A DNA stretch of 45,967 nt from Candidatus Coprousia avicola. GTDB lineage: Bacteria > Actinomycetota > Coriobacteriia > Coriobacteriales > Coriobacteriaceae. This document shows, one piece after another, positions 26,801 to 45,967 of this stretch. The stretch is from NCBI GenBank assembly GCA_018715125.1, contig DVMF01000063.1, positions 1 to 45,967 on the forward strand, read 5' to 3'. The translations under genes were made by a program, and so were the position numbers. Each line of letters opens with the position of its first letter. Within the stretch, counting starts at the first letter, position 1. Below the pieces are notes generated by a model. It was not told the DNA's origin and searched no databases. It saw only the letters and a list, made by a program, of their open reading frames with translations.

Positions 26801-26844
26801 TCATGAATCAGCGCACTCGCACGCGAGAAGCGCCGCAAGCGGAA

Positions 26845-26874
26845 CGCGGCGTCCGCCCGAGGGCGAACGCCGCG
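26845..26874 (-). terminator. hairpin after the first sulfatase gene
   Basis: A 14-bp stem with one mismatch (26845-26858 with 26861-26874), about 60 bases after the sulfatase stop. It is followed on the minus strand by TTCC, so termination would be weak or Rho-assisted. It may set a lower level for the downstream GH1. Confidence 0.45.
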
Positions 26875-26933
26875 CGCTGAGAAAGGGCGCGAGCTGCAAC
26901 CCCTTCTTTTTACCGGCGAGCCTACTGCGCCAG

Positions 26934-28433
26934 CTAGCGCTTATCGAATCGCGGCGGCACGTAATCTGCTGTCTCCATATAGAAGCGCAGCAGCCGCGCC
27001 CGGAGTCGCTCCGCATCCTCCGCATAAGCGGGGTCGTCGATACGGTTGACCGTCTCCATAGGGTCGCTCGCAAGATCGTAGAGCTGGTCTCCCTCGTAGA
27101 GCCTCATCACGTATTTGAGGCTTCCCTGACGCACCATGGCCGCCTTGGTATGAGCCGGGCCCTCCTCGTGCTGCGCGGAGATGCGCGGCCAATACGCCGA
27201 TGCGGGACCATGCTCGGGCTCCATTGCCTGCCACTCGCCGTGGAGGCGCCCTCCCTCGGAAAAGACGGCATCGTCCGGTGTCTCGCCACCGCTAATGGCA
27301 TCCATGAGCGAATGCCCAAACTGCACGTATCCGAGGTCGATGTCCGCCATCTCCGCCACCGTTGCGGGCAGGTCGATAAGCCCTACCGTTCCGCGTCGCA
27401 CGCCCGGACAAACATTGAAGCGCGCTGCGGGCTTCACCACCAAGGGCACACGGGTAAGCGGGTCCTCAAACGAGTTCTGGCATTTCTCGGCGATACCGTA
27501 GTCGCCGGTCAGGTCACCGTGATCGCTGAACGCAAAGACACTCGTCTCGTCGTAGAGGCCGCGCTCGCGAAGCTTGTCGAGCACAAGGCCGAGCATGTGG
27601 TCCCAGCGCGCCGTCATTCCGAGGTATACGGCGCGCATCTCGTTGTACTGCTCCTCCCCCCAGTCCCGCATTCCTTGACGCTCGCGGATCTTGGTGAGGA
27701 TGCTCGCCTTGCCGGAGAGCGTCTCCACATCGGGACGGCGCGGCGGCAGGGAGCCGCGATCGACAAGCGAGTACCACGGCTCCTCGCATCCGTAGGGCGG
27801 ATGCGGGAACATGAGGGTGCAGTAAATGAAGAAGGGCTTCTCCTGCGTCGCGGGGTCCACGGAGTCGAGGAAATCAAGAACCGAGCGCACGCAGTTCCAG
27901 TCGAAGGTGGCGTCGAGGGAATGCTCCGGATAGCGACCCTGCATAAAGGAGTACTTCGTTTCGACCCCGTCGAACACCGCCGGCATCTCGGGCGCAGGCA
28001 TGCCCTCTGCCATGCGGCCGAAGTTGACGCCGCCACCTTCGACGGCCGCCTTGTCATCGCTGTCGATACCGTCGTAATAATGGTCGCAGTAGGCGGACTT
28101 CCGCCACGTGCCGGGAATGAAGTCGTTGCGGCCGATCCACACGACCTCATACCCCGCCTCCTTCATGGTGCGCAGGATGTTGGGATCTTCCTCGCGCATC
28201 ATGAAGTGCATCGTGCGATGTCCCAGCGTATGCGGATAGAGACCCGTCAGAAAGCTACACCGGCTCGGCACGCACACGGGGTTTTGGCAGTAGGCATCGG
28301 CAAATGAGACGCCCTCGGTGGCAAGGGCATCCAGATTTGGTGTCACGGCGGCGGGATTCCCCAAGTGGCCCATGGCGTCGGCGCGCATCTGGTCGGCCAC
28401 AAACCAGACGATGTTCGAACGGGTTTCTGCCAT
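26934..28433 (-). CDS. Cys-type sulfatase 1 (S1 family), cytoplasmic
   Basis: A 499-residue type I sulfatase. The formylglycine core is C54-V-P-S-R followed by CSFLTGLYP, so activation requires an anSME. The metal site is seen in FVADQMRAD near the N-terminus and FSDHGDLTGDYG. The mid-region motif normally reading GKxH is IGRNDF here, which marks a distinct subfamily. The C-terminus ends with the common DQLYDLASDPMETVN block. No signal peptide is present: the protein begins MAETRSNIVWF, i.e. directly with the catalytic beta-strand. It starts six bases after the EIIC stop, with AAGGAGG inside the end of that gene. It likely desulfates a PTS-imported sugar; the target sugar is unknown. Confidence 0.9.
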   Translation of the reverse strand: MAETRSNIVWFVADQMRADAMGHLGNPAAVTPNLDALATEGVSFADAYCQNPVCVPSRCSFLTGLYPHTLGHRTMHFMMREEDPNILRTMKEAGYEVVWIGRNDFIPGTWRKSAYCDHYYDGIDSDDKAAVEGGGVNFGRMAEGMPAPEMPAVFDGVETKYSFMQGRYPEHSLDATFDWNCVRSVLDFLDSVDPATQEKPFFIYCTLMFPHPPYGCEEPWYSLVDRGSLPPRRPDVETLSGKASILTKIRERQGMRDWGEEQYNEMRAVYLGMTARWDHMLGLVLDKLRERGLYDETSVFAFSDHGDLTGDYGIAEKCQNSFEDPLTRVPLVVKPAARFNVCPGVRRGTVGLIDLPATVAEMADIDLGYVQFGHSLMDAISGGETPDDAVFSEGGRLHGEWQAMEPEHGPASAYWPRISAQHEEGPAHTKAAMVRQGSLKYVMRLYEGDQLYDLASDPMETVNRIDDPAYAEDAERLRARLLRFYMETADYVPPRFDKR

Positions 28434-28439
28434 GTGCGG

Positions 28440-29747
28440 CTACGCCTCCTTCGCGGGCCCCGACTCGGCGGAGGCCTCCTCGTCGTATGCTTCCTTATCC
28501 ATCATCCTGAAGAACGGCAGATAGAGGACGAACTGCAGTGCAACGAGCACCAGCTGCCATACCGCCGCCTGCCAGCCACCGGTAAGGAAGCCCGCCATGA
28601 TGATGGGGGTGCCGGTAGACAGCTGCACGCCGTTGAGCACGGGAATGACGCCAAGAATTGTTGCCACATAGGAGAGAGCGAATGACAGCAGCGGCGCGAA
28701 GATCATAGGAATGAACATAAGCACGTTCAGCATAAGCGGGGTGCCGAACACGATGGGTTCTGAGATACCGCAGAGCGCCGGCACGATGGCCATGCGGCCG
28801 AGCTGCTTGTATCGGGCGCTCTTGGCAAAGAACGTCATCAAGATGGTGAGGCCGATGATACCGCCCGAGCCACCCAGCTGCACAAACGTGAACCACCAGG
28901 TGTTGGTGAGGATGTTGGGCATGGCGGCGCCAGCAGCGAACGCCTCCATGTTCTCGAGCGCGGGTTGCATGTAGAGCATCGACAGGAAGGGCATGACGAC
29001 CATACCGCCGTGGATGCCGAAAAACCAAAGCAGGTTGCAGAGGAAGCAGAGAAGTCCAAAGGTGAGAGGGCTCTCGGAGAGCGTGCCCAGCGGCGCCTTG
29101 AGGATGCCGTAGATAAGACCGTCGAGCGTGCCGAACGGGGTGAGCAGGCAGAGCTGGCGCACGACGACGAAGAGGACGGCGATGCACACCACCGGGATGA
29201 TGCCGGCAAAGCTGCGCTCGATGAAAGGAGGAACGCCCTCGGGCATCTTGATCGTGATGTTGTGCTTAACAAACTGATGGTAGACGAGCGGTACGATGCA
29301 GCCCAAAATCATGGCGCTGAAAAGACCGGCCGACCCGAAGTACGTCAGATCGATGACGTTGGCGATGGTGACGCCGTCCTGGGTTGCCCCTGTGGGCTTG
29401 ATGAGCAGGAACACGAAGAGCGTCGTGATGCCGACGATCGACGCCTGCTTATCGAGCCCGAGCTGATCGGCCATGGACTTGCCGATGGCAAAAGCAGCGT
29501 ATACCGCGAGCATATTGGTGGTGTAGGTGGTAACAAACGTGAAGATGTCCTTGAGGCCGCTTGAGGTGATAGCGTCCTGATACGGCTGGAGGTTGAATCC
29601 CGACAGAAGCGACGCAATGGCGCCGCCCATGATAACGGGCAGCAGCATGCTGAAGCCACCGGAGATGGCCTTTAGGAGCTTGCTCTGCGATAGCTTATCG
29701 GCAAGGGGAACCAGCGTCTTCTGCATAACGGCTTGAATCTGGTCCAT
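28440..29747 (-). CDS. PTS lactose/cellobiose-family EIIC component (orphan)
   Basis: A 435-residue membrane protein of the Lac/Cel PTS family. Typical elements are the N-terminal MDQIQAVMQKTLVPLADKLS followed by SGGFSMLLPVIMGG, NLLWFFGIHGGMVV in the middle, and PALCGISEPIVFGTPLMLN near the end. About ten helices. EIIA and EIIB of this family are separate proteins and none is encoded in the window, so they must come from elsewhere. Start at 29747 follows GAGAGG. It is cotranscribed with sulfatase 1, and the upstream gap carries four TGGA-N6-TCCA-like sites. This couples transport of a disaccharide or amino sugar with intracellular desulfation. Confidence 0.92.
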   Translation of the reverse strand: MDQIQAVMQKTLVPLADKLSQSKLLKAISGGFSMLLPVIMGGAIASLLSGFNLQPYQDAITSSGLKDIFTFVTTYTTNMLAVYAAFAIGKSMADQLGLDKQASIVGITTLFVFLLIKPTGATQDGVTIANVIDLTYFGSAGLFSAMILGCIVPLVYHQFVKHNITIKMPEGVPPFIERSFAGIIPVVCIAVLFVVVRQLCLLTPFGTLDGLIYGILKAPLGTLSESPLTFGLLCFLCNLLWFFGIHGGMVVMPFLSMLYMQPALENMEAFAAGAAMPNILTNTWWFTFVQLGGSGGIIGLTILMTFFAKSARYKQLGRMAIVPALCGISEPIVFGTPLMLNVLMFIPMIFAPLLSFALSYVATILGVIPVLNGVQLSTGTPIIMAGFLTGGWQAAVWQLVLVALQFVLYLPFFRMMDKEAYDEEASAESGPAKEA

Positions 29748-29822
29748 ATGGTCCTCTCTCCCTTTAGGGGCGGTGCAGCTTGGGGCCCACTGGCTGCGGT
29801 ACGCTTCCCATCTTAGAGAGAA

Positions 29823-29909
29823 ATGGATATATGTCCATTTTTATATGGACTGTTATCCATGAACGGACGATTATCCACTGTAAACGGTATGTTTTGGAGA
29901 TATGTTCAT
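29823..29909. promoter_or_regulatory. array of RpiR-type operators (TGGA-N6-TCCA)
   Basis: Sites: ATGGA-N6-TCCAT at 29823-29838 and again at 29845-29860, a weaker ACGGA-N6-TCCAC at 29863-29878, and TTGGA-N6-TTCAT at 29894-29909, overlapping the rpiR stop. The region is AT-rich and holds the probable promoter of the EIIC-sulfatase genes. The same motif occurs at 30726-30743 before rpiR. Confidence 0.6.
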
Positions 29910-30694
29910 TCTTTATTAAGGAGGCGCGACACCCGCAGCAGCACGAGCTCGATGAACATCATGGCGATGATCTGGTCCTCGTAGAAGTTGATGGACTCAT
30001 CCCGGCTGATCCATGGCAGATAGTAGGTATGCGTAGCGTGCTCGGCAAGCTTAAGCGTACGGTTCATCGTGATGAGGTGCACGTCGACGCCGCGCTGCCG
30101 CATCGCGTCCATCGCCTCGTCGTAGCGCGCAAAGCCACGTCCGGAAAGCGTGATGACCACGGCGACGTCGCCCTCACCCAATATGTCGGCATCATCGCTC
30201 ATCACAATGGGGTCGCTCGTCCACTTGTTGTAGACACCGAGGCGCGTCAGGCGGTGCGAGAGCTGCTGGGCGCTCTCTGCGGTACGGTTGACGCCCCAGA
30301 TATCGATACGGCGCGCGCCGACGATGGCGTGTGCGAAAGCATCGACCTCCTCCTCGGTCACCGCGCTCGCGATGCGCCGGACATAGGAGGCGTACACGTC
30401 TGCGAGCCTATTGATATCCGAGGCAAGATCGCTCTCGCTCTCACCTACTGTCAAAGCCCCCTCGTGCGCCAGCAGGGCACGATTCATCGAGAAGCGGAAC
30501 TCGGAGAAGCCGTTGTACCCGAGCTTCTGGCTCAAGCGGATGAGCGCGGAGTTGGACGTCCCCGTAATCCGGGCAATCCGCGTGATGCTTCCCTGCAGGA
30601 TAAGTGCGGGATCGTCCAGAAAAGCCTCGGCGGCACGGGCCTCGGTTTTGGTGAGCGACGGCAGGGCGCGGCGCATATCCTCGAGAAGGCCCAT
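29906..30694 (-). CDS. MurR/RpiR-family regulator
   Basis: A 262-residue regulator. The HTH_6 domain covers about residues 3-75 (SLTKTEARAAEAFLDDP, ITRIARITGTSNSALIRLSQ, KLGYNGFSEFRFSMN). The SIS domain at about 115-230 (RRIDIWGVNRTAESAQQL, VAVVITLSGRGFARYDEAM) binds a phosphosugar. Start at 30694 (MGLLEDMRR) is supported by AGGGGGAG; an upstream ATG at 30742 is rejected because it overlaps the operator. It stands between two sets of TGGA-N6-TCCA sites and before the EIIC-sulfatase operon on the same strand, so it is most likely their regulator and autoregulated. Confidence 0.9.
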   Translation of the reverse strand: MGLLEDMRRALPSLTKTEARAAEAFLDDPALILQGSITRIARITGTSNSALIRLSQKLGYNGFSEFRFSMNRALLAHEGALTVGESESDLASDINRLADVYASYVRRIASAVTEEEVDAFAHAIVGARRIDIWGVNRTAESAQQLSHRLTRLGVYNKWTSDPIVMSDDADILGEGDVAVVITLSGRGFARYDEAMDAMRQRGVDVHLITMNRTLKLAEHATHTYYLPWISRDESINFYEDQIIAMMFIELVLLRVSRLLNKE

Positions 30695-30725
30695 CGGCTC
30701 CCCCTTTCGTGTGTGCGAATGTCTA

Positions 30726-30743
30726 ATTGGAACTATATCCAAT
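30726..30743. promoter_or_regulatory. operator in front of the RpiR gene
   Basis: ATTGGA-ACTATA-TCCAAT is a perfect 6+6 palindrome, 32 bases upstream of the rpiR start and two bases after the preceding gene's stop. It has the same TGGA-N6-TCCA core as the array at 29823-29909, which argues for autoregulation. Confidence 0.55.
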
Positions 30744-35306: not shown

Positions 35307-36797
35307 CTACCGCTCACGCCGGCATTGGAGCAGGTTCGTGAGCCGGCGGCCGGTGACGAGCTCCCCGTCCTTCACGAAGCCCTCCTCGCGCCTCGCAAGC
35401 TCGGCGATGAGCACGGAGCGCAGCTCCGCCACGCGCTGTGCGCAGGCAGGTTCGTCGATGGCATCATGCGACTCGCGCGGGTCGGCGGCGAGGTCGAAGT
35501 ACTGCTCGCGTCCCGTCTGGCTGAACCAGATGTACTTGTCGTGCGATGTCACGATATAGTGGTTCGATTGCTCGCGATCCCGCACGTGCTCGCCGTGGAT
35601 GTAGGTGCGCTGCAGGCTCCCCCGCCCCAGCACCTCGCTCGCGAGGGACAATCCATCGACCGTGTCGGGCACGCCCGCACCCGCGAACTCCAAAAGCGTC
35701 GGCATGATGTCCATGAGTTCGACCACCTGCTCGGAGCGCCGCCCGGCATAGCCCTCCCCTGCGCCCATCGCCGCTGCCGCCTGCTTCCCAGTGCGGACGA
35801 TAAGCGGTATGTGCGCGGACCCCTCATAGGGCAGCACCTTGCGAAACAGGGAGTGGTCGAAGAGCATCTCCCCGTGGTCCGAGGTGAACACCACGATCGT
35901 GTTGCCATAGGTCCCGTCGTTCTCGAGGGCGGTGATGAGGCGTCCCACCTGATGGTCGATGTGCGTGATGCATGCATAGTACCCTGCCATCGCCTGACGA
36001 CGAAGCTCCGCATCGCGGCAACCGTGAACGCTGTCGAGGACCATGCCGTCGCGCTCGGTCGCCTCGACGTCGTCCCAGTCTCCCGAGGCGGGCGGGCGTA
36101 GGTCGCGCCCGCCATAGAAGTCAAAGTAGCTCTGGGGGGCATCGAATGGCGGATGTGGGCGCACGAAGCTTGCGGTGAGGAAGAACGGCCGCGTGCGGTC
36201 GCGCGTCTCGAGGAAGCGGATGGACTCATCGACCACCCAGTTCGTGGGATGGTAGCGCTCCTCGTAGATCCAGGGATGCGTGATCCAAGAATTGTTCTCG
36301 ACGCCCGAGCCGTTCACATCGAATGAAGCGCCCAAGCGGTCGCGCATGTCGCGCATGTAATCATCGGAAACCGCTTGGTGCTGCCAATACGGCGTATCGG
36401 CATGGCGATAGTGGCCGATGTATCCGTCATGCAGCTTGAGCGTCTGGAAGCCGCAGGCGAGACGGGGCGGATGCACGTGCATCTTGCCCACGCACGCCGT
36501 CTGGTAGCCGGCGCAGCCGAGTTCCTCGGCAAGATAATGATCGTACTCCCAATCTACGCCATCCTGATAGCCCACGCGGCCATGGGAGGAAGGGGCCTGG
36601 CCGGTAAGGAGCCCTGCGCGCGCCGGAATACAGCTCGGGCAGGCGGAGTAGGCGTTCTCGAAGAGCGTTCCCTCCGCAGCGAGCGTATCGAGGTAGGGCG
36701 TCTTCACGTCCGGATGCCCGGCGGCTCCCAGGCAATCGCCGCGCAGCTGGTCGCAGACGATGAGAACGATATTAGGTTGAGCAATCGGACGAGCCAT
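35307..36797 (-). CDS. Cys-type sulfatase 2 (S1 family), cytoplasmic
   Basis: A 496-residue type I sulfatase. The formylglycine core is C56-I-P-A-R followed by AGLLTGQ. The metal-binding and active-site residues are visible in LIVCDQLRGD, VGKMHVHP (canonical Lys and His), ASFVRPHPPFDAPQ and FTSDHGEMLFDH. It starts MARPIAQPNIVLIVCD, without a signal peptide, so it works in the cytoplasm. AAGGAG precedes the ATG at 36797. It is the last gene of the mannose-PTS/sulfatase cluster, following the two unknown membrane-associated proteins. The sulfated substrate is unknown; import by the cluster's own PTS is the natural proposal. Activation presumably depends on the maturases at 10859 or 43785. Confidence 0.92.
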   Translation of the reverse strand: MARPIAQPNIVLIVCDQLRGDCLGAAGHPDVKTPYLDTLAAEGTLFENAYSACPSCIPARAGLLTGQAPSSHGRVGYQDGVDWEYDHYLAEELGCAGYQTACVGKMHVHPPRLACGFQTLKLHDGYIGHYRHADTPYWQHQAVSDDYMRDMRDRLGASFDVNGSGVENNSWITHPWIYEERYHPTNWVVDESIRFLETRDRTRPFFLTASFVRPHPPFDAPQSYFDFYGGRDLRPPASGDWDDVEATERDGMVLDSVHGCRDAELRRQAMAGYYACITHIDHQVGRLITALENDGTYGNTIVVFTSDHGEMLFDHSLFRKVLPYEGSAHIPLIVRTGKQAAAAMGAGEGYAGRRSEQVVELMDIMPTLLEFAGAGVPDTVDGLSLASEVLGRGSLQRTYIHGEHVRDREQSNHYIVTSHDKYIWFSQTGREQYFDLAADPRESHDAIDEPACAQRVAELRSVLIAELARREEGFVKDGELVTGRRLTNLLQCRRER

Positions 36798-36825
36798 GGC
36801 TCTCCTTCCCTAGATGCGCCGACCG

Positions 36826-36866
36826 CCCTGCGTGACAGCGGTGCCAGGGGAAGCTCTCACGCAGGG
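36826..36866 (-). other. intergenic hairpin within the sulfatase cluster
   Basis: CCCTGCGTGA (36826-36835) and its complement (36857-36866) form a 10-bp perfect stem with a 21-base loop, between the small membrane protein and sulfatase 2. There is no T-run. It may be a processing or partial-termination site that tunes expression of the last gene. Confidence 0.4.
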
Positions 36867-36878
36867 AGCCGGAACCGT

Positions 36879-37346
36879 TCAGTGAATCTTGCGCATATCG
36901 GCGAGAAAAGCCTCGACCGCGCCGGCATCGGCCCCGAGCAGAACGAGCTCGCGCTCGGCACCGCGCATCGTGTAGCGCACGGACACGCCGCCCGCGACCG
37001 CGACGGATTCGACCCGCTCGACGCGATCCCAGCCCACGCGCATGCCGCCCTGATAGATCCCGTGCGGCCCCATGCCGGAGCGCACGAGGGCAAGCGAGGC
37101 GCCTACCGCGACGAGGACACAGCACGCGGAGAAGTCGTCGGGCTGCGCGCCCCGCACGACGAAGTACCCGATACCGAGGATGGCAACCGCAGCCGCGACG
37201 ACCGCGTTCACCGGCGCGCGGGGTACCGCGAACCTCAACGAGCCCCGCTGGTCGATGGCGAGGTACACGCTATAGCAGACCAGCAGGGCGGCCACGATGA
37301 CAAGGGTCCACTCGAGAACGCCGAAGCTTGAGAAAAACGCGGGCAT
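36879..37346 (-). CDS. membrane protein with a C-terminal PH-like/DUF5673-like domain
   Basis: A 155-residue protein. Three hydrophobic helices lie at about residues 12-32, 45-64 and 72-90. A soluble C-terminal domain follows (GIYQGGMRVGWDRVERVES, then VRYTMRGAERELVLLG and AVEAFLADMRKI). The alternation of strands ending in one helix resembles bacterial PH-like domains such as DUF5673; this is recognition from memory, not a search. Start at 37346 behind AAGGGATGA, four bases after the stop of the TPR-like gene, so the two are coupled. It sits between two sulfatase genes. Its role there is unknown. Confidence 0.7.
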   Translation of the reverse strand: MPAFFSSFGVLEWTLVIVAALLVCYSVYLAIDQRGSLRFAVPRAPVNAVVAAAVAILGIGYFVVRGAQPDDFSACCVLVAVGASLALVRSGMGPHGIYQGGMRVGWDRVERVESVAVAGGVSVRYTMRGAERELVLLGADAGAVEAFLADMRKIH

Positions 37347-37350
37347 GAAC

Positions 37351-37959
37351 TCATCCCTTCACGGGCGCGCGCATGTGCTTCTCGGAGCGCTTGAGATAGC
37401 GCTCGCTTGCCGCGGCATCGCCCTTGTTCTCGTACTGCAGGGCCAGCAAGAGCTCGAGGAAGCCTCGATCGACCCCGTGGAGCCCCTCGACGCGGCGCTC
37501 CATGTCCTCGATATATCCCCAGCCCTTCTTGATGTAGATGTCGTGCATCATGCGCGCCTCCGCGACGGCGTCGGCGTCTTCCCAGGTCTCGATCTCGGCG
37601 AGGAGCCTCGTCGCCCCTTCGGCATTGCCGCGCTCGAGATAGTAGTTGAAGGCCTTCCCCACGAGCTCGCGGCGCTGCCGGTCGTTCTGCCTCATAGAGA
37701 GCATCCGCTCGATCACGGAATCCGCCTCGCCGTACGCATCGAGCGCAAGATACCCGTTGAGCTGCATAAACGAGCGATTCCAGGCAGGGAAGACGAGCTT
37801 CGCGAGCGGTTTCTCGAGCAAGGCGAGGTACGCGCGCACCTCCCCCTGCTCGAGAAGCGAGGCCAGCTCATGGGTATATGCGCGCTTCGCCACTTCAGTG
37901 AGGATCAAAAGCGCCGTCGCGGCGATGAGTATCACGGCGCCGATGATGCGGATATCCAC
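37351..37959 (-). CDS. membrane-anchored helical-repeat (TPR-like) protein
   Basis: A 202-residue protein with one N-terminal membrane helix (VDIRIIGAVILIAATALLIL) and a helical body of TPR-like pairs: AYTHELASLLEQGEVRAYLA, FMQLNGYLALDAYGEADSVI and ELLLALQYENKGDAAASERY. The GTG start at 37959 is supported by GGGAGG; the longer frame upstream is arginine-rich noise overlapping the sulfatase stop. It follows sulfatase 3 by 47 bases and is coupled to the next small membrane protein. TPR-like proteins often hold partners together at the membrane. Any link to sulfatase or PTS function is guesswork. Confidence 0.72.
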   Translation of the reverse strand: MDIRIIGAVILIAATALLILTEVAKRAYTHELASLLEQGEVRAYLALLEKPLAKLVFPAWNRSFMQLNGYLALDAYGEADSVIERMLSMRQNDRQRRELVGKAFNYYLERGNAEGATRLLAEIETWEDADAVAEARMMHDIYIKKGWGYIEDMERRVEGLHGVDRGFLELLLALQYENKGDAAASERYLKRSEKHMRAPVKG

Positions 37960-38006
37960 GAAGCCTCCCTGTCGTGTAGGAGCCTGTCCGGTAGGACCGC
38001 GCGAAC

Positions 38007-39506
38007 CTAGGACAGGCCCAGGCGGTCGAATTGCTCGGCGGGCGCGTCGTGCTCGACGAGGCCACGTCGCAGCAGCGCGACCATGCACTCCTCGGCGGGG
38101 GCATCCTTCCCCGCCAGGTTATGGACCTGGGCATAGTCCCCGTCCAGATCGAAGAGCAGCGAGTCGCGCACCTCTTCCAGGCAGTCCTCGCGCTGGTCGA
38201 TGTTCGCCGGCTTCTTGCAGGGGAACCGGTAGACGGGATAGTCCGTCCACGAGAGGAAGCGCCCCATCTCGATGTCATCCACGCAATCGGTGCCCATCTT
38301 CTTGCGGATGGTATGGGGAATGGCCGCGTACTCGTAGCACGGGCGGTTTCCCGGCACGGGAGCACGGAAGTAGGTGTAGCGGCCATCCGTCACGTTCACC
38401 GTCATGGCGTGCACGCCATAGAGCGCATAATCGCGCGTCGGGGCAGTCGCATCGGTCATCAGCGGCATGAGCGATGTGCCGCGCACGGACGATGGCACCT
38501 CGCAACCGTATGCATCGAGAAGCGTAGGCATGATATCGATCGCCTGGGTCAGCTGACCGGCGCGCTCGCCTGCCCGAGCACCCCCCGGGAAGTGCACGAT
38601 AAACGGCAGATGGGCGAGCTCGTTATACAAATGCATGTAATTCTTGCCCAGATAGTCGCGATCGCCCAGGAAATACCCGTGATCGGTGGTCACGAGAATC
38701 ATCGTGTCATCGTAGATGCCGCGCGCCTTGAGCGCATCGATGAGCGTGCCGAACCAATGGTCCGTGCACGTCACCAGCGCCTTATAGCGACGCTGCACGT
38801 ACTCGATTGCTCTCTCGGGAATATCCGTCTCGCTCACGCGACGATAGGGCGGGATCTCGAAGTAATCGCGATCGAGTCCCTCGGCACCGCCGTACATGTC
38901 CATGTAGCGGTCGGGCACATCGAAGGGCTCATGCGGGTCGAACGCCTCGACCATGAGGAAGAAGTCGTCGTTCTCGGCATTTTCCTCGATGAAGTCGCAG
39001 GCCGCCCGGAAGGTGCGCGGGCTCGGCATGTCCTCCTCGCGTGGCCACTTCGCCCGATTCTTCTGATACTGCTCGCGCACACGGCCGTAGAAGGTCTCGG
39101 GCATGTTGTCGGGCTCGTCGATGCGGCTCACCCACGGGTCGCCCTCCTGGCCGCGGAAGAGCTCCCAGCTGTTGAACAGCTGGAGATAGCCCTCGCCGCC
39201 CGTGCGAGCATAGTGGCAATGGTCCGTCTTGATGCAGGTATAGGTGCCGCCCGCCCGCAGACCGTCCACGAGCGTGGCGTCGAAGGGCTCGATGGGGCCC
39301 CAGGGTCGCTCGAGGAAGTTGTAGCGCCCGCACATGATGTCGCGGCGCGCGGGCATGCACGGCGCGGAGCCGATCCAATGGTTGTCGAAGACCAGCGAGT
39401 CCTCGGCGAATGCGTCGAGATGCGGCGTATGGGCGGCTCCCTCGGGGTTGTAGCACCCCAGCGCATCCCTGCGAAGGGTGTCCATCAGCACCAGGATCGT
39501 TCTCAT
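38007..39506 (-). CDS. Cys-type sulfatase 3 (S1 family), cytoplasmic
   Basis: A 499-residue type I sulfatase of a different subfamily from the other two. The formylglycine core is C50-M-P-A-R in IGSAPCMPARRDIMCGR. Other active-site features are VLMDTLRRD, IKTDHCHYA (Lys with two His), EAFDPHEPFDVP and VTTDHGYFLGDRDYLGK. It begins MRTILVLMD directly with the first strand, so there is no signal peptide. Start at 39506 behind AAAGGG. It follows the mannose-family PTS genes after a 328-base gap with three hairpins, and precedes the TPR-like gene. It is likely a cytoplasmic desulfatase for a PTS-imported sugar, needing an anSME. Confidence 0.92.
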   Translation of the reverse strand: MRTILVLMDTLRRDALGCYNPEGAAHTPHLDAFAEDSLVFDNHWIGSAPCMPARRDIMCGRYNFLERPWGPIEPFDATLVDGLRAGGTYTCIKTDHCHYARTGGEGYLQLFNSWELFRGQEGDPWVSRIDEPDNMPETFYGRVREQYQKNRAKWPREEDMPSPRTFRAACDFIEENAENDDFFLMVEAFDPHEPFDVPDRYMDMYGGAEGLDRDYFEIPPYRRVSETDIPERAIEYVQRRYKALVTCTDHWFGTLIDALKARGIYDDTMILVTTDHGYFLGDRDYLGKNYMHLYNELAHLPFIVHFPGGARAGERAGQLTQAIDIMPTLLDAYGCEVPSSVRGTSLMPLMTDATAPTRDYALYGVHAMTVNVTDGRYTYFRAPVPGNRPCYEYAAIPHTIRKKMGTDCVDDIEMGRFLSWTDYPVYRFPCKKPANIDQREDCLEEVRDSLLFDLDGDYAQVHNLAGKDAPAEECMVALLRRGLVEHDAPAEQFDRLGLS

Positions 39507-39581
39507 GCAAGCGCCCTTTCTCTATGATGGCGGGCACGGTGACCGCCCGCTCGCGTTTGTGGGTATAACGCTCATGTTCCA

Positions 39582-39712
39582 CAAGATGCCCGGAATATGC
39601 GATGAAGTCCGGGCATGTTGAGGGACACGGGTGTCCGGACCCGCCGTGCGGCAAGCAGCGGGTCCGGACCGCTCGCATGGGGCGCCGCGGTGATGCTTCG
39701 GGCGCCCCATGC
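39582..39712 (-). other. three successive stem-loops between the PTS and sulfatase genes
   Basis: The 328-base gap 39507-39834 holds no gene. It contains H1 (39582-39594 with 39608-39620, 12 of 13 pairs), H2 (GTCCGGACCCGC at 39633-39644 with 39658-39669, perfect) and H3 (GCATGGGGCGCC at 39675-39686 with 39701-39712, perfect), each with a 13-14 base loop. A smaller stem lies at 39530-39550 near the sulfatase start. No T-runs follow. They may stabilise mRNA ends, attenuate transcription, or form a small RNA. Confidence 0.55.
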
Positions 39713-39834
39713 CCTTTGCGTGACAACGGTGCGAACGCCGGTCACGCGATTACGTTGCGATGACGTCGTGCATGCGGTGCCACGCGCCCGGCATCATGAA
39801 GCCGGTAGGCGCGGCGCCGAGAGGCCGACCGTCC

Positions 39835-40662
39835 TTACGCGAAGATGCTGACGCCGGTGTAGTAGCCGATGGCAGCGAAGACGAGCGCGAACACGATGAT
39901 ACCGATGATCACCTGGGCGGTGTTCTTGCCCTGACCCTTCTTGATGAGCTTATAGCAGATCAAGGTGAGGATGACCGGCAGCATGTACGGCATGACCGCG
40001 TCGAGCTGGGTCTGGATGACGAGCGGATCGCCCTCAGAAAAGGCGAACTGCAGCCCTGTGGTGAGCTTGACCGTCTGCGGGATCAAGCAGCCCACGACGA
40101 TGACGCCGAGGACGTTGGCGAGGTTGCCGAGGCGCTCGATGAGCGCGACGCCGCCCTGCTCGATGAGCTCCATGCCCTTGGTGTAGCCCATGTGGATGCC
40201 GAAGTACTTCAGCGGCCAGTAGAGCACGTTGATGAGCAGGAACATGACGAGCGGGCCGATGAGCGAGCCATTGCTGACGCAGAGCGACGCGCCGATGGAA
40301 CCGGCGATGGGGTACCACGTGAGGTTCAGCATCGAGTCACCGAGGCCGGCGAACGGGCCCATGAGCGAGGTCTTGATGCCGGTCACGGCGTCCTTGTGGT
40401 CCTCGTCGGTGGTCTCCTCGAGCGCGGCGCAGATGCCCAGGATGAACGGGATCGCGAGCGGATGGGTGTTGAAGTACTCGAGATAGCGCCTCATCGCCGT
40501 GACGCGCTCCTCCTTGGGGCGGTCCTTGTAGAGCTCCTCAAGGACCGGCGAGAAGCAGTAGGTGAGCGAGAGCGACTGCATGCGCTCGTAGTTATGCGCG
40601 AACTGGCAGCCCTGAGTGCGCAGAAGAACCTTGTTCAGGGCGTGATTGCTGACGTGAGCCAT
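39835..40662 (-). CDS. PTS mannose-family EIID component
   Basis: A 275-residue membrane subunit of the mannose-type permease. Family signatures are NYERMQSLSLTYCFSPVL and YNTHPLAIPFILGICAALEE-like text (here FNTHPLAIPFILGIC), TSLMGPFAGLGDSMLNLTWY in the centre, and a C-terminal pair of helices. The start overlaps the EIIC stop by one base (TAATG). It works with EIIC in forming the translocation channel. Mannose-family systems carry mannose, amino sugars, sorbose or glycosaminoglycan disaccharides; the sulfatases downstream favour an amino-sugar or glycosaminoglycan-type substrate, which is inference. Confidence 0.94.
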   Translation of the reverse strand: MAHVSNHALNKVLLRTQGCQFAHNYERMQSLSLTYCFSPVLEELYKDRPKEERVTAMRRYLEYFNTHPLAIPFILGICAALEETTDEDHKDAVTGIKTSLMGPFAGLGDSMLNLTWYPIAGSIGASLCVSNGSLIGPLVMFLLINVLYWPLKYFGIHMGYTKGMELIEQGGVALIERLGNLANVLGVIVVGCLIPQTVKLTTGLQFAFSEGDPLVIQTQLDAVMPYMLPVILTLICYKLIKKGQGKNTAQVIIGIIVFALVFAAIGYYTGVSIFA

Positions 40663-41474
40663 TACAGATCATACTCCTCTCCATCATCAGCGCCTTCAGC
40701 GGAGGCGATGGCCGGAGCGGCCTGCGTGTTCTTCTGGCCCTCGACGACGAAGTCGTAGAAGCCGGCGATGGCGGCAGCGATGATCGCGCAGCCGAGGGTG
40801 GGGATGCCCACGTACGCGTTGAGCACGAAACCGATGAGCAGGAAGATCCACATGTTCTTCTTCATCATCATGGTGAGTAGCATCGCGAGGCCCACGGCGG
40901 GCATCATGCCGCCGGCGGCGCTCATACCGGAAAGCACCCAAGGCACATCGTTCTGCAGGAAGGCCATGATGTTCTCGATGACGTAGGAACCGATGCCGGT
41001 GGCGATGAACACCGGCACGGCGCGCGTCAGGAAGAAGCAGATCGCGCCACCCCAGAAGAACTTGTTGACCGCCTTGAACTCACCGGACTCGGCAGCCTTG
41101 TCGGCGCCGTGCAGGAAGCTGGCATTCGTGGTCATGACCAGGATGTTGAGCTGTTGGACCAACGTGGCGGTGGGGACGCCGATGGCGACGGCGAGCGCCG
41201 TGGCCTCGGTCACGCTGCCACCGGACATGATGCCCAGCGACGCACCCACGATGGTGCCGGAGATGACATCGGGCGGAACGTACGCGCCGATGTTGTTGAC
41301 GCCAAGCCACATGAGCTCCATGGTTGCGCCGATGACGATCGCGGTGGTCATGTCGCCCAAGATGATGCCGACACCGACCGACGCGAGCAAGGGCTTGCGG
41401 AACCCAAGATGCGGGCCCAACTGGTCCCACTCGCACAGGCCCGCCCAGATGGCGAGGAGCAGTGCTTGAACCAT
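40662..41474 (-). CDS. PTS mannose-family EIIC component
   Basis: A 270-residue membrane subunit. Typical parts are GDMTTAIVIGATMELMWLG, the VPPDVISGTIVGASLGIMSG stretch and several further helices, ending in an acidic tail (EGADDGEEYDL). The start at 41474 follows AAAGGAGG; the 16-residue upstream extension is rejected. It lies 172 bases after the EIIB stop, a wider gap than usual in such operons, in which I see only weak hairpin potential. With EIID it forms the channel and is energised by EIIA and EIIB. Confidence 0.93.
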   Translation of the reverse strand: MVQALLLAIWAGLCEWDQLGPHLGFRKPLLASVGVGIILGDMTTAIVIGATMELMWLGVNNIGAYVPPDVISGTIVGASLGIMSGGSVTEATALAVAIGVPTATLVQQLNILVMTTNASFLHGADKAAESGEFKAVNKFFWGGAICFFLTRAVPVFIATGIGSYVIENIMAFLQNDVPWVLSGMSAAGGMMPAVGLAMLLTMMMKKNMWIFLLIGFVLNAYVGIPTLGCAIIAAAIAGFYDFVVEGQKNTQAAPAIASAEGADDGEEYDL

Positions 41475-41646
41475 ACCGTTTCCTCCTTTACAAGTATGGA
41501 AATTGCAACGGGTCGCTGGCATGCGGCCCGCAGTGCCGCTGAAACGATCGCGCTCGCCTGGCCAAGAAACCGGACACCTGTAGGCGCGGCGGGACGAGCG
41601 CGGGGTGCGCCCGGCGGCGATACGTCACCGGACGGGAACGGAGCGC

Positions 41647-42129
41647 CTAGCCCTTGAAGTTCTTGAGCAGGTCGGGCACGCGTTCCTTGGTGTCGCGGGT
41701 CGTCGTCTGCATCCAGCACTCCACACCGAGCGACTCGAGCTCCTCGAAGGCGCGCTTCTCGTCCGCAGTGATGGACATGTTCTTATGGATGCGCTGGCGC
41801 TCGTCGTTGAAGCGCATACCCGAGACGTTGAGATAGGTGAAGTCAAGCCCGTTCTTCTTCAGGGCGAGGGCGTCGATGGGGTTGCCGAAGAGCACGAGCG
41901 TGACCTTTTTGAGCGTGGTCTTCTTAAGCACGTCGATGAACTTCTCGACGGTGAAGACCGACACCTTGATGTTCGGCACCGCGAGTCCGGCGACCGAGCG
42001 CTGCACGGGGTCGTTCGCGCAGGCATCGTTCACGATGATCACCGACTCGATCCCGAAATCAGGAATCCACGTCGTGGCAACCTGGCCATGGATGAGACGG
42101 TCGTCAATGTCTACAAGTTTGAGGGGCAT
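41647..42129 (-). CDS. PTS mannose-family EIIB component
   Basis: A 160-residue cytoplasmic phosphocarrier. The phosphohistidine is His14 in DDRLIHGQVATTW, the defining motif of mannose-family EIIB. IIVNDACANDPVQRSV and the C-terminal half are also typical. The ATG at 42129 is chosen since AAAGGAG lies eight bases away; the GTG at 42138 overlaps that site. It is 15 bases after EIIA. It passes phosphate from EIIA to the sugar during transport through EIIC/EIID. Confidence 0.93.
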   Translation of the reverse strand: MPLKLVDIDDRLIHGQVATTWIPDFGIESVIIVNDACANDPVQRSVAGLAVPNIKVSVFTVEKFIDVLKKTTLKKVTLVLFGNPIDALALKKNGLDFTYLNVSGMRFNDERQRIHKNMSITADEKRAFEELESLGVECWMQTTTRDTKERVPDLLKNFKG

Positions 42130-42144
42130 ATCGCTCACTCCTTT

Positions 42145-42576
42145 CTAGAGGTCGAGGTCGTCCTCGTCCTCTTCTTCCGCCAGCTGGACCTTGACCTCCT
42201 TGAGCGCCTCGGCATTGGTGGCGAGCACATGCTCACGCACCTCGTCGGGCGTAAGGTCGGCCGAGAACACGAGATCGATGAGCACGGGCAGGTTCACGCC
42301 GGTAAAGGCGACCATCTCGGCACCGCGCAGCATCGCGCGCGAGATGACGTTGAACGGCGTGCCGCCGTAGATGTCACAGAGCGCGACAACATGGTCGTAC
42401 GCCTCGTCGAGCTCTGAGTAGGCCTCGGAAAACTCCGCCTCGAACTCCTCGGCGCTCTTGTTCTCGGTGAGCGAGAGCGCGCGAACGCGCGTCTGCTTGC
42501 CCGCGAGCATCTCGGCGCCCTCGAGCAATGCCTCGCCGATGTGCGCGTGCGTCGCAAGGATGATTCCAAACGACAT
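42145..42576 (-). CDS. PTS mannose-family EIIA component
   Basis: A 143-residue cytoplasmic phosphocarrier. The phosphohistidine is His10 in FGIILATHAHIGEALLEGAE. The ALCDIYGGTPFNVISR segment and GVNLPVLIDL are family marks. It ends in a strongly acidic tail (AEEEDEDDLDL). Start at 42576 follows AGGAGG. It is the first gene of the mannose-PTS/sulfatase cluster and is divergent from the DeoR-type regulator, sharing a 335-base AT-rich control region with it. Confidence 0.93.
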   Translation of the reverse strand: MSFGIILATHAHIGEALLEGAEMLAGKQTRVRALSLTENKSAEEFEAEFSEAYSELDEAYDHVVALCDIYGGTPFNVISRAMLRGAEMVAFTGVNLPVLIDLVFSADLTPDEVREHVLATNAEALKEVKVQLAEEEDEDDLDL

Positions 42577-42674
42577 GTTTCCTCCTGACGAATCGTCTTC
42601 GCCCGCGCGCGTCGTTTCCATGCGCGACCGGGCTCCTCCCCTTGTCGGTGTTCCGTGAAGCTGTTGCTCTAATT

Positions 42675-42875
42675 TGTTCTTTATTGAACATTAGATAACG
42701 TAGCAAATGAACACATTACGAAACCGATGGCCTTACATATATACCGATACAACTCGTGGTTTCGTGGACGCACTTATCTTAGCAGGACTTTGAAGCCCAA
42801 ACGTCAATCGTGTAGAAATTACCGTTTGGCGCGAATATATGACCGTCTACGTAATTTTTTGATTCTATTTGTTCA
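42675..42875. promoter_or_regulatory. control region with TGTTC/GAACA repeats between PTS and deoR
   Basis: The 335-base gap 42577-42911 is AT-rich. It carries the palindrome TGTTC-N6-GAACA at 42675-42690, TGAACA at 42708-42713 and TTGTTCA at 42869-42875. Repeated TGTTC-type half sites on both sides of a divergent promoter are typical of DeoR-family repressors. -10-like patches are several, so exact promoters are not assigned. Confidence 0.5.
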
Positions 42876-42911
42876 TTTCTGTTATTTTGAAGATGCCTAA
42901 GGGAGGTAGAA

Positions 42912-43670
42912 ATGCTCAAGGTTCAACGACAGGAAGAGATCGTACGCCTATGCAACTCATCGGGGCTCGTCACGGTGAACGAGGTCGCGGAGCTTCTCGG
43001 CACCTCACCGATGACCATCAGGCGCGATATGGAGGAGCTCGCCCAGGAACATCGCATCGAGCGCGTGCGCGGCGGCGCCAAAAGCGTCGTCACCGTGCCG
43101 CAGATGGTACGCGAGTTTCCGCACGATAAAAAGAGATCGCAGCACTATGCGGAGAAGCAGCATATCGCGAAGCTGGCGGTGGGGCTTCTGAGGGATGGCG
43201 ACGCCGTGTTCCTCGGCGCGGGCACCACCTGCGAGCTCATCGCCCAGAACCTTGGCGAGAAGTCGCTCAGCGTGGTCACCAACAGCATCTCCGCCTTCGA
43301 GCTGCTCAGAGAGAATCCCAACATCGAGCTCTATCTGCTCGGCGGCCTCTATCGCCGCAAGACGAGCGTGCTCTACGGACATCTCACCGAAGAGGCCCTC
43401 TCGTCCATGAGTGTAGACAAGGTGTTCTTCGGGGTGAACGGCATCTGCGCGCCCGACGTGATGGGGCACAACGTCGATATCTCGAACCTCCAGCGCATGG
43501 CGCTCGACAAGGGACGCAAGCGCTACATCGTGGCGGATTCCTCGAAGTTCTTCCGAAAAGACCTGTTCACGTTCTACACCCTCGACCAGATCGACGCCGT
43601 GATCACCGATCCGGGCATCACCGCCGAGCAACGCGCCTCCTGCGAACAGTACACGCAGGTGATCTGCTAG
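42912..43670 (+). CDS. DeoR/GlpR-family sugar regulator
   Basis: A 252-residue regulator. The N-terminal HTH is at residues 4-57 (RQEEIVRLCNSSGLVTVNEV, AELLGTSPMTIRRDMEEL), with RVRGGAK at its end. The DeoR sensor domain follows with DAVFLGAGTTCELIAQNL, TNSISAFELL and a C-terminal DSSKFFRKDLFTF motif. Such proteins bind phosphorylated sugars. GGGAGG precedes the ATG. It is divergent from the mannose-PTS/sulfatase genes and surely regulates them, probably as a repressor. Maturase copy 2 follows it by 114 bases on the same strand and may be in the same transcript. Confidence 0.92.
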   Translation: MLKVQRQEEIVRLCNSSGLVTVNEVAELLGTSPMTIRRDMEELAQEHRIERVRGGAKSVVTVPQMVREFPHDKKRSQHYAEKQHIAKLAVGLLRDGDAVFLGAGTTCELIAQNLGEKSLSVVTNSISAFELLRENPNIELYLLGGLYRRKTSVLYGHLTEEALSSMSVDKVFFGVNGICAPDVMGHNVDISNLQRMALDKGRKRYIVADSSKFFRKDLFTFYTLDQIDAVITDPGITAEQRASCEQYTQVIC

Positions 43671-43784
43671 CGACGGGTCGGGCGGGACATCTTTCTGCTG
43701 GCGGCGGGCTCGACCGAATTGTCTCCCTGCCAACGGCGAGTCCGACCGGACCGCCTCCAACATCTCATCCGTTCGAGGAGCCCC

Positions 43785-44879
43785 ATGATGAAGTACATCA
43801 GCTTTCTCATCAAGCCTGCTTCGGCCTCGTGCAACATGCGGTGCCGATACTGCTTCTATGCGGACGTCGCCGAGCACCGCGCGGTGCGGTCGCACGGCGT
43901 CATGGGCACCGATGTGATGGAGGCACTCATCGACCGTGCACTCGGGCTCGACGACAGCGCGCGGATCGCCTTCGCCTTCCAAGGCGGCGAACCCACGCTC
44001 GCGGGACTCGACTTCTTCCGCGCGTTCGTCGCGCGCGTGGAGGCCGGGCGCACGCATCAGCAGGTGAGCTACGCCATCCAGACGAACGGCTACCTTATCG
44101 ACGAGGAATGGGCGGTGTTCTTCCACGAGCACCGCTTCTTGGTGGGCATCTCGCTCGACGGCTACCGCGAGCTACACGACTGGCTGCGCCCCGATGCTGA
44201 GGGCACGGGCACCTTTGCGCGCGTCATGCGTGCCATCGACGTATTGCGCGACACACACGTGGAGTTCAACGTGCTCACGGTGCTCACCGCGCAACTTGCC
44301 AAGCACCCGCAGAGGCTCTATCGCTTCTACTGCGATCATGGTCTTGACTACGTCCAGCTCATCCCCTGCCTCCCGGGACTTGACGACGATGCCGATGAGT
44401 TCTCGCTCAGCCCCGAAGCGTTCGCCTCGTTCTACAAGGTGTTCTTCCGACTCTGGCTCGATGAGTACCGCCAGGGGCGCTACCGCTCCGTCACGCTCTT
44501 CGACAATGTGATCCCGCTCTTTGCCGGCGTGGCCCCGCAGCAGTGCGGCATGCTCGGGCGGTGCGCGCCGCAATTCGTGGTGGAGAGCTCGGGCGATGTG
44601 TATCCGTGCGATTTCTACGTACTCGATCGCTACCGCTGCGGGAACATCGTGGATAACACCCTCGAAGAGCTTGCGACTTGCGATGCCGTGCGCGCCTTCC
44701 TCGCCGAGCCCCGGCGCGCGTGCTCGCGATGCGCCGACTGCCCCTTCGAGCGCATCTGCCATAGGAACTGCAAGCGCTTGAATATCGCCTATTACCGCGA
44801 GGATTATTGCGGCTATCGCGACTTCCTAGAAGAGGCCGCCCCGCAGATGGCCGCCATCGCGCGCACGATCCGACGGTAG
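43785..44879 (+). CDS. anaerobic sulfatase-maturating enzyme (anSME), copy 2
   Basis: A 364-residue radical SAM/SPASM enzyme closely matching the copy at 10859 along its whole length. Cluster cysteines are C16, C20 and C23 in SCNMRCRYCFYADVAEHR. The SPASM cysteines are in CGMLGRCAPQF, DVYPCDFYVLD, CSRCADCPF and CHRNCKRLN. It installs formylglycine in Cys-type sulfatases without oxygen. The start at 43785 follows GAGGAG; a second ATG directly after it is also possible. Downstream of deoR and near the PTS/sulfatase cluster, this is the maturase most likely co-regulated with sulfatases 2 and 3. It faces a CLC gene, as copy 1 does. Confidence 0.93.
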   Translation: MMKYISFLIKPASASCNMRCRYCFYADVAEHRAVRSHGVMGTDVMEALIDRALGLDDSARIAFAFQGGEPTLAGLDFFRAFVARVEAGRTHQQVSYAIQTNGYLIDEEWAVFFHEHRFLVGISLDGYRELHDWLRPDAEGTGTFARVMRAIDVLRDTHVEFNVLTVLTAQLAKHPQRLYRFYCDHGLDYVQLIPCLPGLDDDADEFSLSPEAFASFYKVFFRLWLDEYRQGRYRSVTLFDNVIPLFAGVAPQQCGMLGRCAPQFVVESSGDVYPCDFYVLDRYRCGNIVDNTLEELATCDAVRAFLAEPRRACSRCADCPFERICHRNCKRLNIAYYREDYCGYRDFLEEAAPQMAAIARTIRR

Positions 44880-45048: not shown

Positions 45049-45967
45049 TCAGCGTCGCTCGCCCGTGGCCTTTTCGTGATGATCCGCGATGGCCTCGTTG
45101 ACGGTATGCCCTTGGTCCGCCTCGAGAGAGCGCCACTTGGGCGTTACGATGCGCTGCGCCGGGTACACGCCGCGGTGCCCCGCCGCCAGATCGCTCACGA
45201 ACGAGACGATGACGAAATACGGCGCCGCCAAGACCCCGAAGAGGTCCACACCGAGCAAGATCGTCGTCATGGGCACATTGAGCGCCGAGCCGAACACGCC
45301 CACCATGCCGAGCGCCGCACCGAACGCCGGCGTAACGCCAAGCGAGTAGCCGAGCACGGCGCCGAGCCAACCACCGAGCGAGGCCCCGATGCCGAAGATG
45401 GGCGTGACCTCGCCGCCCTGAAAGCCCGCCCCCAGCGTAAGCGCCGTCATGGCGAGCTCGAGCAACGCATCGATGGGCGTCGCGGCCCCCGTGAACCCTG
45501 CCTCCACAAGCCACGAGGAAAGTCCGCCGTAATCGTAAAGGCCGAAGACCACATAGGTCCCGAGCACCACGAAAGCGCCAACCGGCGCCGCTACCAAGTA
45601 GTTCGTGATATGAGCGGCATAGAATCGCTTGACGACGCGAATCGCCCCCGAGAACATGCGCGCCGCGATACCGAAGACCACCGCGGCCAGCACCGCGAAT
45701 GCAAGCGATGAAGGTCCGAGCCGCGGGACCATGCCGATGTCGTAGCCCTCGCGGGGAGCTCCGAGCGCCGTCGTCACGGCATCGCCGACAAACGAGGCGA
45801 GCAAACAGTACACGCCGGCCCGATACTGCAGCTTGCCGACGAAGCACATCTCCATACCGAAGAAAGCACCCGCGAGCGGCGTGCCGAACACCCCACCGAA
45901 CGCAGCGGAAATGCCCGCCATGAGGAGATCTTGGTGATCGTATTCACCGAGCTTGAAGAGACGCGAA
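45049..45967 (-). CDS. CLC-family anion channel/antiporter, copy 2, 5' end beyond window
   Basis: The C-terminal 305 residues of a CLC protein; the frame is open to the right edge, so the N-terminus lies outside. The visible part, from SRLFKLGEYDHQDLLMAG onward, aligns throughout with the copy at 12017: GGVFGTPLAGAFFGMEMCF, GFQGGEVTPIFGIGASLGG and GHRGVYPAQRIVTPKWRSL. The region that would hold GREGT or GREGP is not in the window. It converges with maturase copy 2, exactly the arrangement seen for copy 1. Its specificity is thus inferred only from the paralogue. The end is about nine residues longer than copy 1. Confidence 0.85.
   Translation of the reverse strand, partial: SRLFKLGEYDHQDLLMAGISAAFGGVFGTPLAGAFFGMEMCFVGKLQYRAGVYCLLASFVGDAVTTALGAPREGYDIGMVPRLGPSSLAFAVLAAVVFGIAARMFSGAIRVVKRFYAAHITNYLVAAPVGAFVVLGTYVVFGLYDYGGLSSWLVEAGFTGAATPIDALLELAMTALTLGAGFQGGEVTPIFGIGASLGGWLGAVLGYSLGVTPAFGAALGMVGVFGSALNVPMTTILLGVDLFGVLAAPYFVIVSFVSDLAAGHRGVYPAQRIVTPKWRSLEADQGHTVNEAIADHHEKATGERR

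Follow-up and report, generated by a model that had tools for sequence, protein, structure and literature searches.

A mannose-type phosphotransferase system and leaderless sulfatases in Candidatus Coprousia avicola: a probable route for sulfated galactose

The window analyzed here is contig DVMF01000063.1 of Candidatus Coprousia avicola, a gut bacterium with Olsenella and Collinsella among its relatives, at its full length of 45,967 nucleotides; the draft genome measures 2.42 Mb and comprises 93 contigs. Towards its end lies a cluster that combines a mannose-family phosphotransferase system (PTS), two Cys-type sulfatases without leaders and an enzyme resembling the anaerobic sulfatase-maturating enzyme (anSME). 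On the minus strand, the genes for enzymes IIA, IIB, IIC and IID (EIIA to EIID) are followed in transcription order by sulfatase 2, a protein with one transmembrane segment, a small membrane protein and sulfatase 3. Divergent from EIIA, the plus strand encodes a DeoR regulator and then the anSME-like radical-SAM enzyme, and a ClC channel beyond it is truncated by the contig end. The initial annotation, made from the sequence alone, had grouped the four PTS subunits, both sulfatases, the two membrane-associated proteins, the divergent regulator and the maturase into one cluster, and all of them are indeed present:

42145-42576, minus strand: EIIA, mannose family (PF03610, E 1e-21)
41647-42129, minus strand: EIIB, mannose/sorbose family (PF03830, E 1e-39)
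40662-41474, minus strand: EIIC (PF03609, E 3e-67)
39835-40662, minus strand: EIID (PF03613, E 1e-78, 264 bits)
38007-39506, minus strand: sulfatase 2, Cys-type, leaderless, the core catabolic gene of the cluster (PF00884, E 4e-34)
37351-37959, minus strand: one-transmembrane protein with a hydrophobic N-terminus and homologues in related clusters
36879-37346, minus strand: small membrane protein with 2-3 hydrophobic segments
35307-36797, minus strand: sulfatase 3, Cys-type, leaderless (PF00884, E 1e-51; NF010322, 606 bits, cut-off 481)
42577-42911: divergent promoter region between the DeoR and EIIA genes, with four TGTTC[AT][AT]T sites as candidate operators
42912-43670, plus strand: DeoR-family regulator (PF00455 and PF08220)
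43785-44879, plus strand: anSME-like radical SAM/SPASM maturase (open reading frame listed as 43719-44879, likely start ATG at 43785; TIGR03942, 337.6 bits)
45049-45966, minus strand: ClC-type anion channel, incomplete at the contig end (PF00654, E 3e-33)

The one-transmembrane protein has no Pfam match, and in a relative only a TPR match below threshold was obtained; the small membrane protein matched no family in the profile searches of the window proteins. The IIA, IIB, IIC and IID domains all scored above their Pfam cut-offs, which identifies the transporter as a mannose-family PTS. EIIA His10 and EIIB His14, which we take to be the phosphorylated sites, are each invariant in the aligned orthologues (8/8).

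Both sulfatases carry the C-x-P-x-R motif of S1 Cys-type enzymes, as CMPAR with Cys50 in sulfatase 2 and as CIPAR with Cys56 in sulfatase 3. Sulfatase 2 was aligned in 53 rows (the window and 52 of the 79 named loci described below), and the formylglycine cysteine Cys50, Arg54, His96, His98, His192, Asp275, His276 and Lys288 are kept in all 53. The alignment of sulfatase 3 comprised 22 rows, the window and 21 hand-picked ones, and Cys56, Arg60, Lys105 (the lysine of G-K-x-H), His215 and Asp307 are kept in every row. The predicted model of sulfatase 2 adopts the sulfatase fold with a predicted local distance difference test score (pLDDT) of 93.2, and that of sulfatase 3 is weaker (pLDDT 81.4). 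Searching the PDB with sulfatase 3 revealed the arylsulfatase EfAS (9KOQ, 366 bits) and BT1918, an S1_46 enzyme (7OZ8, 340 bits), as matches.

The earlier claim that these sulfatases lack signal peptides is borne out by the reading frame. In-frame stops lie 5 codons ahead of the ATG of sulfatase 2 and 4 codons ahead of that of sulfatase 3, and the Pfam sulfatase match starts at residues 4 and 8, respectively. Because the frame is closed so close upstream and the domain starts so near the N-terminus, a signal peptide is impossible for either protein and a hidden leader is ruled out. A further sulfatase of the window, sulfatase 1, is also leaderless, with an in-frame stop 2 codons upstream, so that the property extends to all three sulfatases of the window.

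Conservation of the cluster was followed in two sets. The related-genome set comprises 98 genomes, the window's own genome counted, and the named-genome set derives from the best 80 of 529 confirmed relatives, which gave 79 loci from Actinomycetota and Bacillota; records close to the window's own genome may be missing from it, and two of its loci (L060 and L061) are genomes G027 and G048 of the related set. Sulfatase 2 at an identity of at least 74% was found in 9 of the 98 related genomes, own included, and the window and the 8 other carriers share one arrangement, with EIIA-B-C-D in unchanged order immediately upstream of this gene. A full-length EIIC of at least 79% identity is present in exactly these 9 genomes, the next full-length EIIC reaching 42%; in genome G008, only pieces of EIIC (76% and 67% identity) are present, on a contig of 3.4 kb.

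In the named set, ten loci with a sulfatase 2 identity of at least 53% are called PTS-linked here, the remaining 69 showing at most 49%. All ten contain a co-linear EIIA-B-C-D-sulfatase 2 unit, and they belong to Thermophilibacter, two Olsenella, two Collinsella, Kribbibacterium, Massilimicrobiota, Dielma, Clostridium cadaveris and a Tissierellia metagenome-assembled genome. Since the gene order is conserved across two phyla, a grouping by chance or artefact is excluded. Among the other 69 loci, a mannose-type PTS adjoins the sulfatase in one only, a second Dielma locus (L069), and this PTS is of a different kind, with EIIC and EIID at 33-37% identity and an EIIA also present. In the midpoint-rooted 53-row tree of sulfatase 2, the 11 rows that have this PTS alongside form one group (98/98), with L069 adjacent (100/98), and the nearest named relatives of the window are Olsenella and Thermophilibacter (Atopobiaceae), followed by Collinsella. 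Sulfatases of types 1, 2 and 3 are also paired with other mannose-type PTSs (L045:6756-9945, L046:1974-5952, L052:11505-14709, L069:7492-11455 and L165:9691-11840, the type 1 copy in L165 having an internal stop), which suggests repeated recruitment.

Sulfatase 3 was left out of the comparison of gene content between loci, as its query matched 68 of the 69 other loci, sulfatase 2 itself being matched by it. At an identity of at least 69%, sulfatase 3 is present in 6 of the 10 PTS-linked loci and therefore looks like an accessory of the cluster. In genome G057, the sulfatase 3 match within the cluster covers 35 residues only (L051:5843-5947), and a copy of 66% identity lies on a separate contig (L052) with another PTS.

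The identity of the sugar was approached through the neighbouring catabolic genes. LacA and LacB isomerize galactose-6-phosphate to tagatose-6-phosphate. In C. cadaveris the PTS and sulfatase are followed by LacA, LacB, a tagatose-bisphosphate aldolase and a hexose kinase, with LacA scoring above the NF006380 cut-off, LacB above that of NF006381 and the GatY-type aldolase, at 498 bits, above that of TIGR01858. LacB lies inside the fetched locus in 8 of the 10 PTS-linked loci (once as a fragment) and LacA in 7, whereas neither occurs in any of the 69 others. LacB was called from the score gap between 248-279 bits and the RpiB level, and from NF006381, whose cut-off is exceeded by the protein of C. 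cadaveris. Over whole genomes, 9 of the 10 PTS-linked ones gave a match of 248-279 bits, against none of 14 controls taken from the 69 loci without this PTS (best control 116 bits). Therefore, the product after desulfation is probably galactose-6-phosphate, as judged from gene linkage. In the related set, LacB above 260 bits is present in all 9 genomes with sulfatase 2, and LacAB adjoin the cluster in 5 of these 9. In the genome of the window, contig 64 carries LacAB beside a DeoR gene, and contig 36 carries a LacC-like kinase with an aldolase as its neighbour.

A PTS transports and phosphorylates its substrate in one step, and aldohexoses taken up by the mannose family receive the phosphate at C6. 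The sulfate is therefore expected at C2, C3 or C4, and 6-sulfated GlcNAc (N-acetylglucosamine), GalNAc (N-acetylgalactosamine) or galactose was rejected as the main substrate. Since terminal 3-sulfogalactose is common in mucin, a sulfate at C3 is favoured. Among the sugars first put forward, namely GlcNAc, GalNAc and galactose, the LacAB linkage favours galactose and the two amino sugars are less supported; we thus favour galactose-3-sulfate as the substrate. In the Tissierellia genome, a GH101 endo-alpha-N-acetylgalactosaminidase, a mucin O-glycan enzyme with a hydrophobic, signal-peptide-like N-terminus, adjoins the cluster (L067:1396-6810), which fits mucin as the source.

The genes expected to serve sulfate chemistry accompany the unit as well. 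An anSME is found within 8 of the 10 PTS-linked loci and 5 of the 69 others, and a TauE/SafE (TSUP) permease within 7 of the 10 and 8 of the 69; given their presence in the other loci, both mark sulfatase loci and not this PTS alone. The comparisons of gene frequency between groups are uncorrected for shared ancestry. The radical-SAM enzyme of the cluster narrowly missed the cut-offs of TIGR03942 (337.6 bits, cut-off 349.45) and NF010321 (350.5 bits, cut-off 441). It carries CxxxCxxC, its Radical_SAM and SPASM domains score above cut-off, and judging by its genomic context it works like an anSME.

Based on these results, we propose that the cluster is a cassette for sulfated galactose, a reading of gene content and synteny to which we give a probability of about 65%. 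The mannose-family PTS would import the intact sulfated galactose and, going by PTS chemistry, phosphorylate it at C6 upon entry. The anSME would mature sulfatase 2 in the cytoplasm, where this enzyme would then desulfate the sugar phosphate. Galactose-6-phosphate formed in this way would enter the tagatose-6-phosphate pathway through LacA/LacB, a kinase of the LacC or 1-phosphofructokinase (1-PFK) type and a class II aldolase, and the freed sulfate probably exits via TSUP-type and/or ClC-type transporters. Sulfatase 3 probably acts on sulfate at another position or on another sugar, and the DeoR regulator probably governs the divergent promoter. The initial annotation had proposed PTS uptake followed by cytoplasmic desulfation. 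The missing leaders, the synteny, the co-clustered maturase, the TSUP permeases and the galactose-6-phosphate genes support this outline; that desulfation takes place on the sugar phosphate we infer from PTS chemistry.

Several observations weigh against this proposal. The strict LacB cut-off of TIGR01119 (312.55) was reached by no genome of the related set and by none of the 10 PTS-linked and 14 control genomes of the named set. In addition, 25 of the 89 related genomes without sulfatase 2 also carry LacB above 260 bits, so that LacB alone is not specific to the pathway. The lac genes of the window's own genome lie on other contigs than the window and are not adjacent to the cluster; the kinase there scores 361 bits and the aldolase 303 bits, below the cut-offs of TIGR01231 and TIGR01858, respectively. 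The kinase of C. cadaveris scores above cut-off for the 1-PFK subfamily and for 1-phosphofructokinase, and at 281 bits it is below cut-off for LacC. Dielma fastidiosa possesses the PTS and both sulfatases and yet has a LacB match only at the RpiB level (103 bits); galactose-6-phosphate is thus not proven for every carrier of the cluster. The PTS subunits fell below every specificity cut-off compared (Aga/Man/Sor), with 169 bits against 300 for AgaW, 157 against 340 for EII-Sor, 203 against 293 for EIID-AGA, 126 against 164 for pts-sorbose IIB and 76 against 130 for AgaF. A substrate call from the PTS itself was rejected on these scores. Some further counterpoints, which concern NagA, BT1918 and Thr94, bear on particular alternatives and are weighed with them. 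In D. fastidiosa, a HAD-type, beta-phosphoglucomutase-like gene lies immediately after sulfatase 2 (L064:11497-12159) and may act on the desulfation product.

The PTS might instead import a sulfated amino sugar, GalNAc-4-sulfate or GlcNAc-3-sulfate, which the sulfatases would turn into GalNAc-6-phosphate or GlcNAc-6-phosphate for enzymes of the NagA or AgaS type. This is unlikely, although it is the strongest of the alternatives. The best profile matches of EIIC and EIIA are the Aga (GalNAc) families, below cut-off, and BT1918, the nearest characterized glycan sulfatase to sulfatase 3, acts on 3S-GlcNAc (PMC10154620). NagA homologues lie near 3 of the 10 PTS-linked loci, making an amino sugar possible, and in Collinsella NagA adjoins the DeoR genes of the cluster. 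There, however, it is placed between these regulators and another mannose-type PTS, to which it may therefore belong. The catabolic genes most often linked to the cluster are LacA and LacB, enzymes of galactose-6-phosphate, and a deacetylase is absent among the four annotated genes that follow the C. cadaveris sulfatase.

Two further explanations are each less probable still. In the first, the PTS would import unsulfated galactose, and the sulfatases would work separately, either on different sulfate esters in the cytoplasm or on free sulfated sugars that have yet to be phosphorylated. The specificity of the PTS is not fixed by its sequence and the order of reactions is deduced, which leaves room for such a division of labour. 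However, sulfatase 2 of C. cadaveris sits between EIID and LacA, with no other importer from EIIA to LacB, and a full-length EIIC of this type never occurs without sulfatase 2 in the 98 genomes. In the second, sulfatase 2 would be a phosphodiester or phosphonate-type hydrolase of the same superfamily that acts on an imported sugar phosphodiester. Its Thr94 aligns with the lysine of G-K-x-H in BT1918, and because of this replacement sulfatase activity is not to be assumed. A Foldseek search with the model placed the phosphonate monoester hydrolase 4uph first and BT1918 (7oz8) second. The two scores are close, however, and phmmer against the PDB put BT1918 (7OZ8) first by a small margin (104 bits). 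The C-x-P-x-R motif, together with anSME in 8/10 and TSUP in 7/10 loci, indicates sulfate chemistry.

Non-classical export of the sulfatases, with activity outside the cell, can be dismissed as very improbable: nothing was found in its favour beyond the two small membrane-associated proteins of the cluster, a leader is impossible in the reading frame, and maturation by radical-SAM anSME takes place in the cytoplasm.

One residue of sulfatase 2 bears on the proposed import and cytoplasmic desulfation of sulfated galactose. All 12 PTS-linked rows of the alignment (the 11 and L069) have Arg101, beside the motif, and none of the 41 others does, 25 of which have Glu. An arginine at this position fits a substrate with an added negative charge, such as a 6-phosphate. 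It tracks one clade and thus stands for one evolutionary event, not 12, which again counts against our proposal. A more specific version, in which galactose-3-sulfate-6-phosphate is an obligatory intermediate, and a specialized sulfatase clade reads the phosphate partly via Arg101, is put forward only tentatively. It would link transport by a PTS and the chemistry of sulfatases with the tagatose-6-phosphate pathway in one metabolic route, spread horizontally among Coriobacteria, Erysipelotrichia and clostridia.

Comparison of the DNA with related genomes bears on mobility. The stretch between about 35.4 and 44.9 kb shares 96.5-99.3% DNA identity with genome G012 (L043), which belongs to a different genus. 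The flanks are less similar to G012, with 81-92.5% over valS and 79% over the spacer at 35.0-35.4 kb, and on the other side the ClC end shows 94.5-95.3%. The reverse pattern was found against G006 of the same genus, with 94% over 30.7-34.9 kb, a stretch that takes in the greater part of valS, and 74-88% wherever the cluster could be aligned. The cassette probably moved between genera as one block, likely by recent horizontal transfer.

Import-coupled leaderless sulfatases have precedents in a pneumococcal PTS operon (PMC3302838) and a GlcNAc-6-sulfate cluster of Bifidobacterium breve (PMC6045583). The pneumococcal SPH1922-SPH1929 operon is the closest. Like the cluster, it joins a PTS, a sulfatase, a sulfatase-modifying enzyme and a TauE-family exporter in one operon. 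Its PTS, compared by description only, is lactose-type, unlike the mannose-type PTS of the cluster, and the portion of the description at hand mentions neither LacAB nor a substrate (PMC3302838). In B. breve UCC2003 (Bbr_0846-0855), a sugar transporter, a sulfatase and the maturase gene atsB are likewise adjacent and are assigned to the metabolism of sulfated sugars, and a sulfated monosaccharide is used, with growth on GlcNAc-6-sulfate. There the transporter is listed as a glucose/fructose transport protein and is not a PTS, and the route runs through NagA/NagB, not tagatose-6-phosphate (PMC6045583). BT1918 of Bacteroides thetaiotaomicron is related to both sulfatases 3 and 2, but it is specific for 3S-GlcNAc and no PTS is described in the part of the report available (PMC10154620). 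The closest solved relative of sulfatase 3, EfAS, is described as a Mn-dependent arylsulfatase of Enterococcus faecium (PMC12421950); sulfatase 3 scores far under the NF052527 cut-off (433 bits against 850). GlcNAc-6-sulfatase genes were found, in one survey, only in Bacteroidetes and Akkermansia among the genomes covered (PMC5583593).

With the tagatose-6-phosphate (lac) pathway of Gram-positive bacteria, the cluster shares the linkage of LacA/LacB, a LacC or 1-PFK-type kinase and an aldolase. That pathway uses a lactose PTS and a phospho-beta-galactosidase, which in the cluster are replaced by the mannose-type PTS and the sulfatase. Import followed by desulfation and the pairing of a PTS with a sulfatase are thus known ideas; a mannose-type form for which galactose sulfate is the predicted substrate was not met in the open-licence literature, where our searches identified no description of a mannose-type PTS with a sulfatase and LacAB. 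Sulfation is thought to protect mucin from bacteria, and work on mucin desulfation has dealt mostly with secreted or periplasmic enzymes of Bacteroides. If the proposed route is true, Coriobacteria and some Bacillota would be able to import sulfated monosaccharides directly, keeping the released sugar from competitors. The LacAB linkage narrows the "sulfated sugar" of the earlier proposal to a class of substrates that can be tested, namely galactose with its sulfate at C3, C4 or C2 and not at C6.

The TGTTC[AT][AT]T motif was picked after inspection, and 4 of its 6 occurrences in the window (both strands) fall within 42577-42911; these sites are possible DeoR operators. Of 8 other DeoR-EIIA regions, 4 contain the motif, and it is absent from both LacA-upstream regions examined (n=2).

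Beyond the components first grouped together, the window contains a TSUP/ClC/anSME module at 10.7-14.2 kb and a second PTS-sulfatase module:

13384-14178, minus strand: TauE/SafE (TSUP) permease, candidate sulfate exporter (PF01925, 96.8 bits, 13423-14157)
12017-13612, minus strand: second ClC channel, beside the TSUP permease and the second anSME (PF00654, E 3e-56)
10742-11953, plus strand: second anSME-like maturase (TIGR03942, 328 bits, under cut-off)
28440-29747, minus strand: lactose/cellobiose-type EIIC adjoining sulfatase 1 (TIGR00410, 282.6 bits, above cut-off)
26934-28433, minus strand: sulfatase 1, leaderless, of the second PTS-sulfatase module (PF00884)
25319-26788, minus strand: GH1 6-phospho-beta-glucosidase adjoining sulfatase 1 (NF007158, 887 bits, above cut-off)

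ClC channels recur next to TSUP and anSME genes in relatives, and the set at 10742-14178 is possibly a shared module for maturation and sulfate export. The second module (25319-30742) consists of the GH1 enzyme, sulfatase 1, the lactose/cellobiose-type EIIC and an RpiR regulator, and this order is kept in genome G007 (L164, 67-93% identity), which suggests import of a sulfated beta-glucoside.

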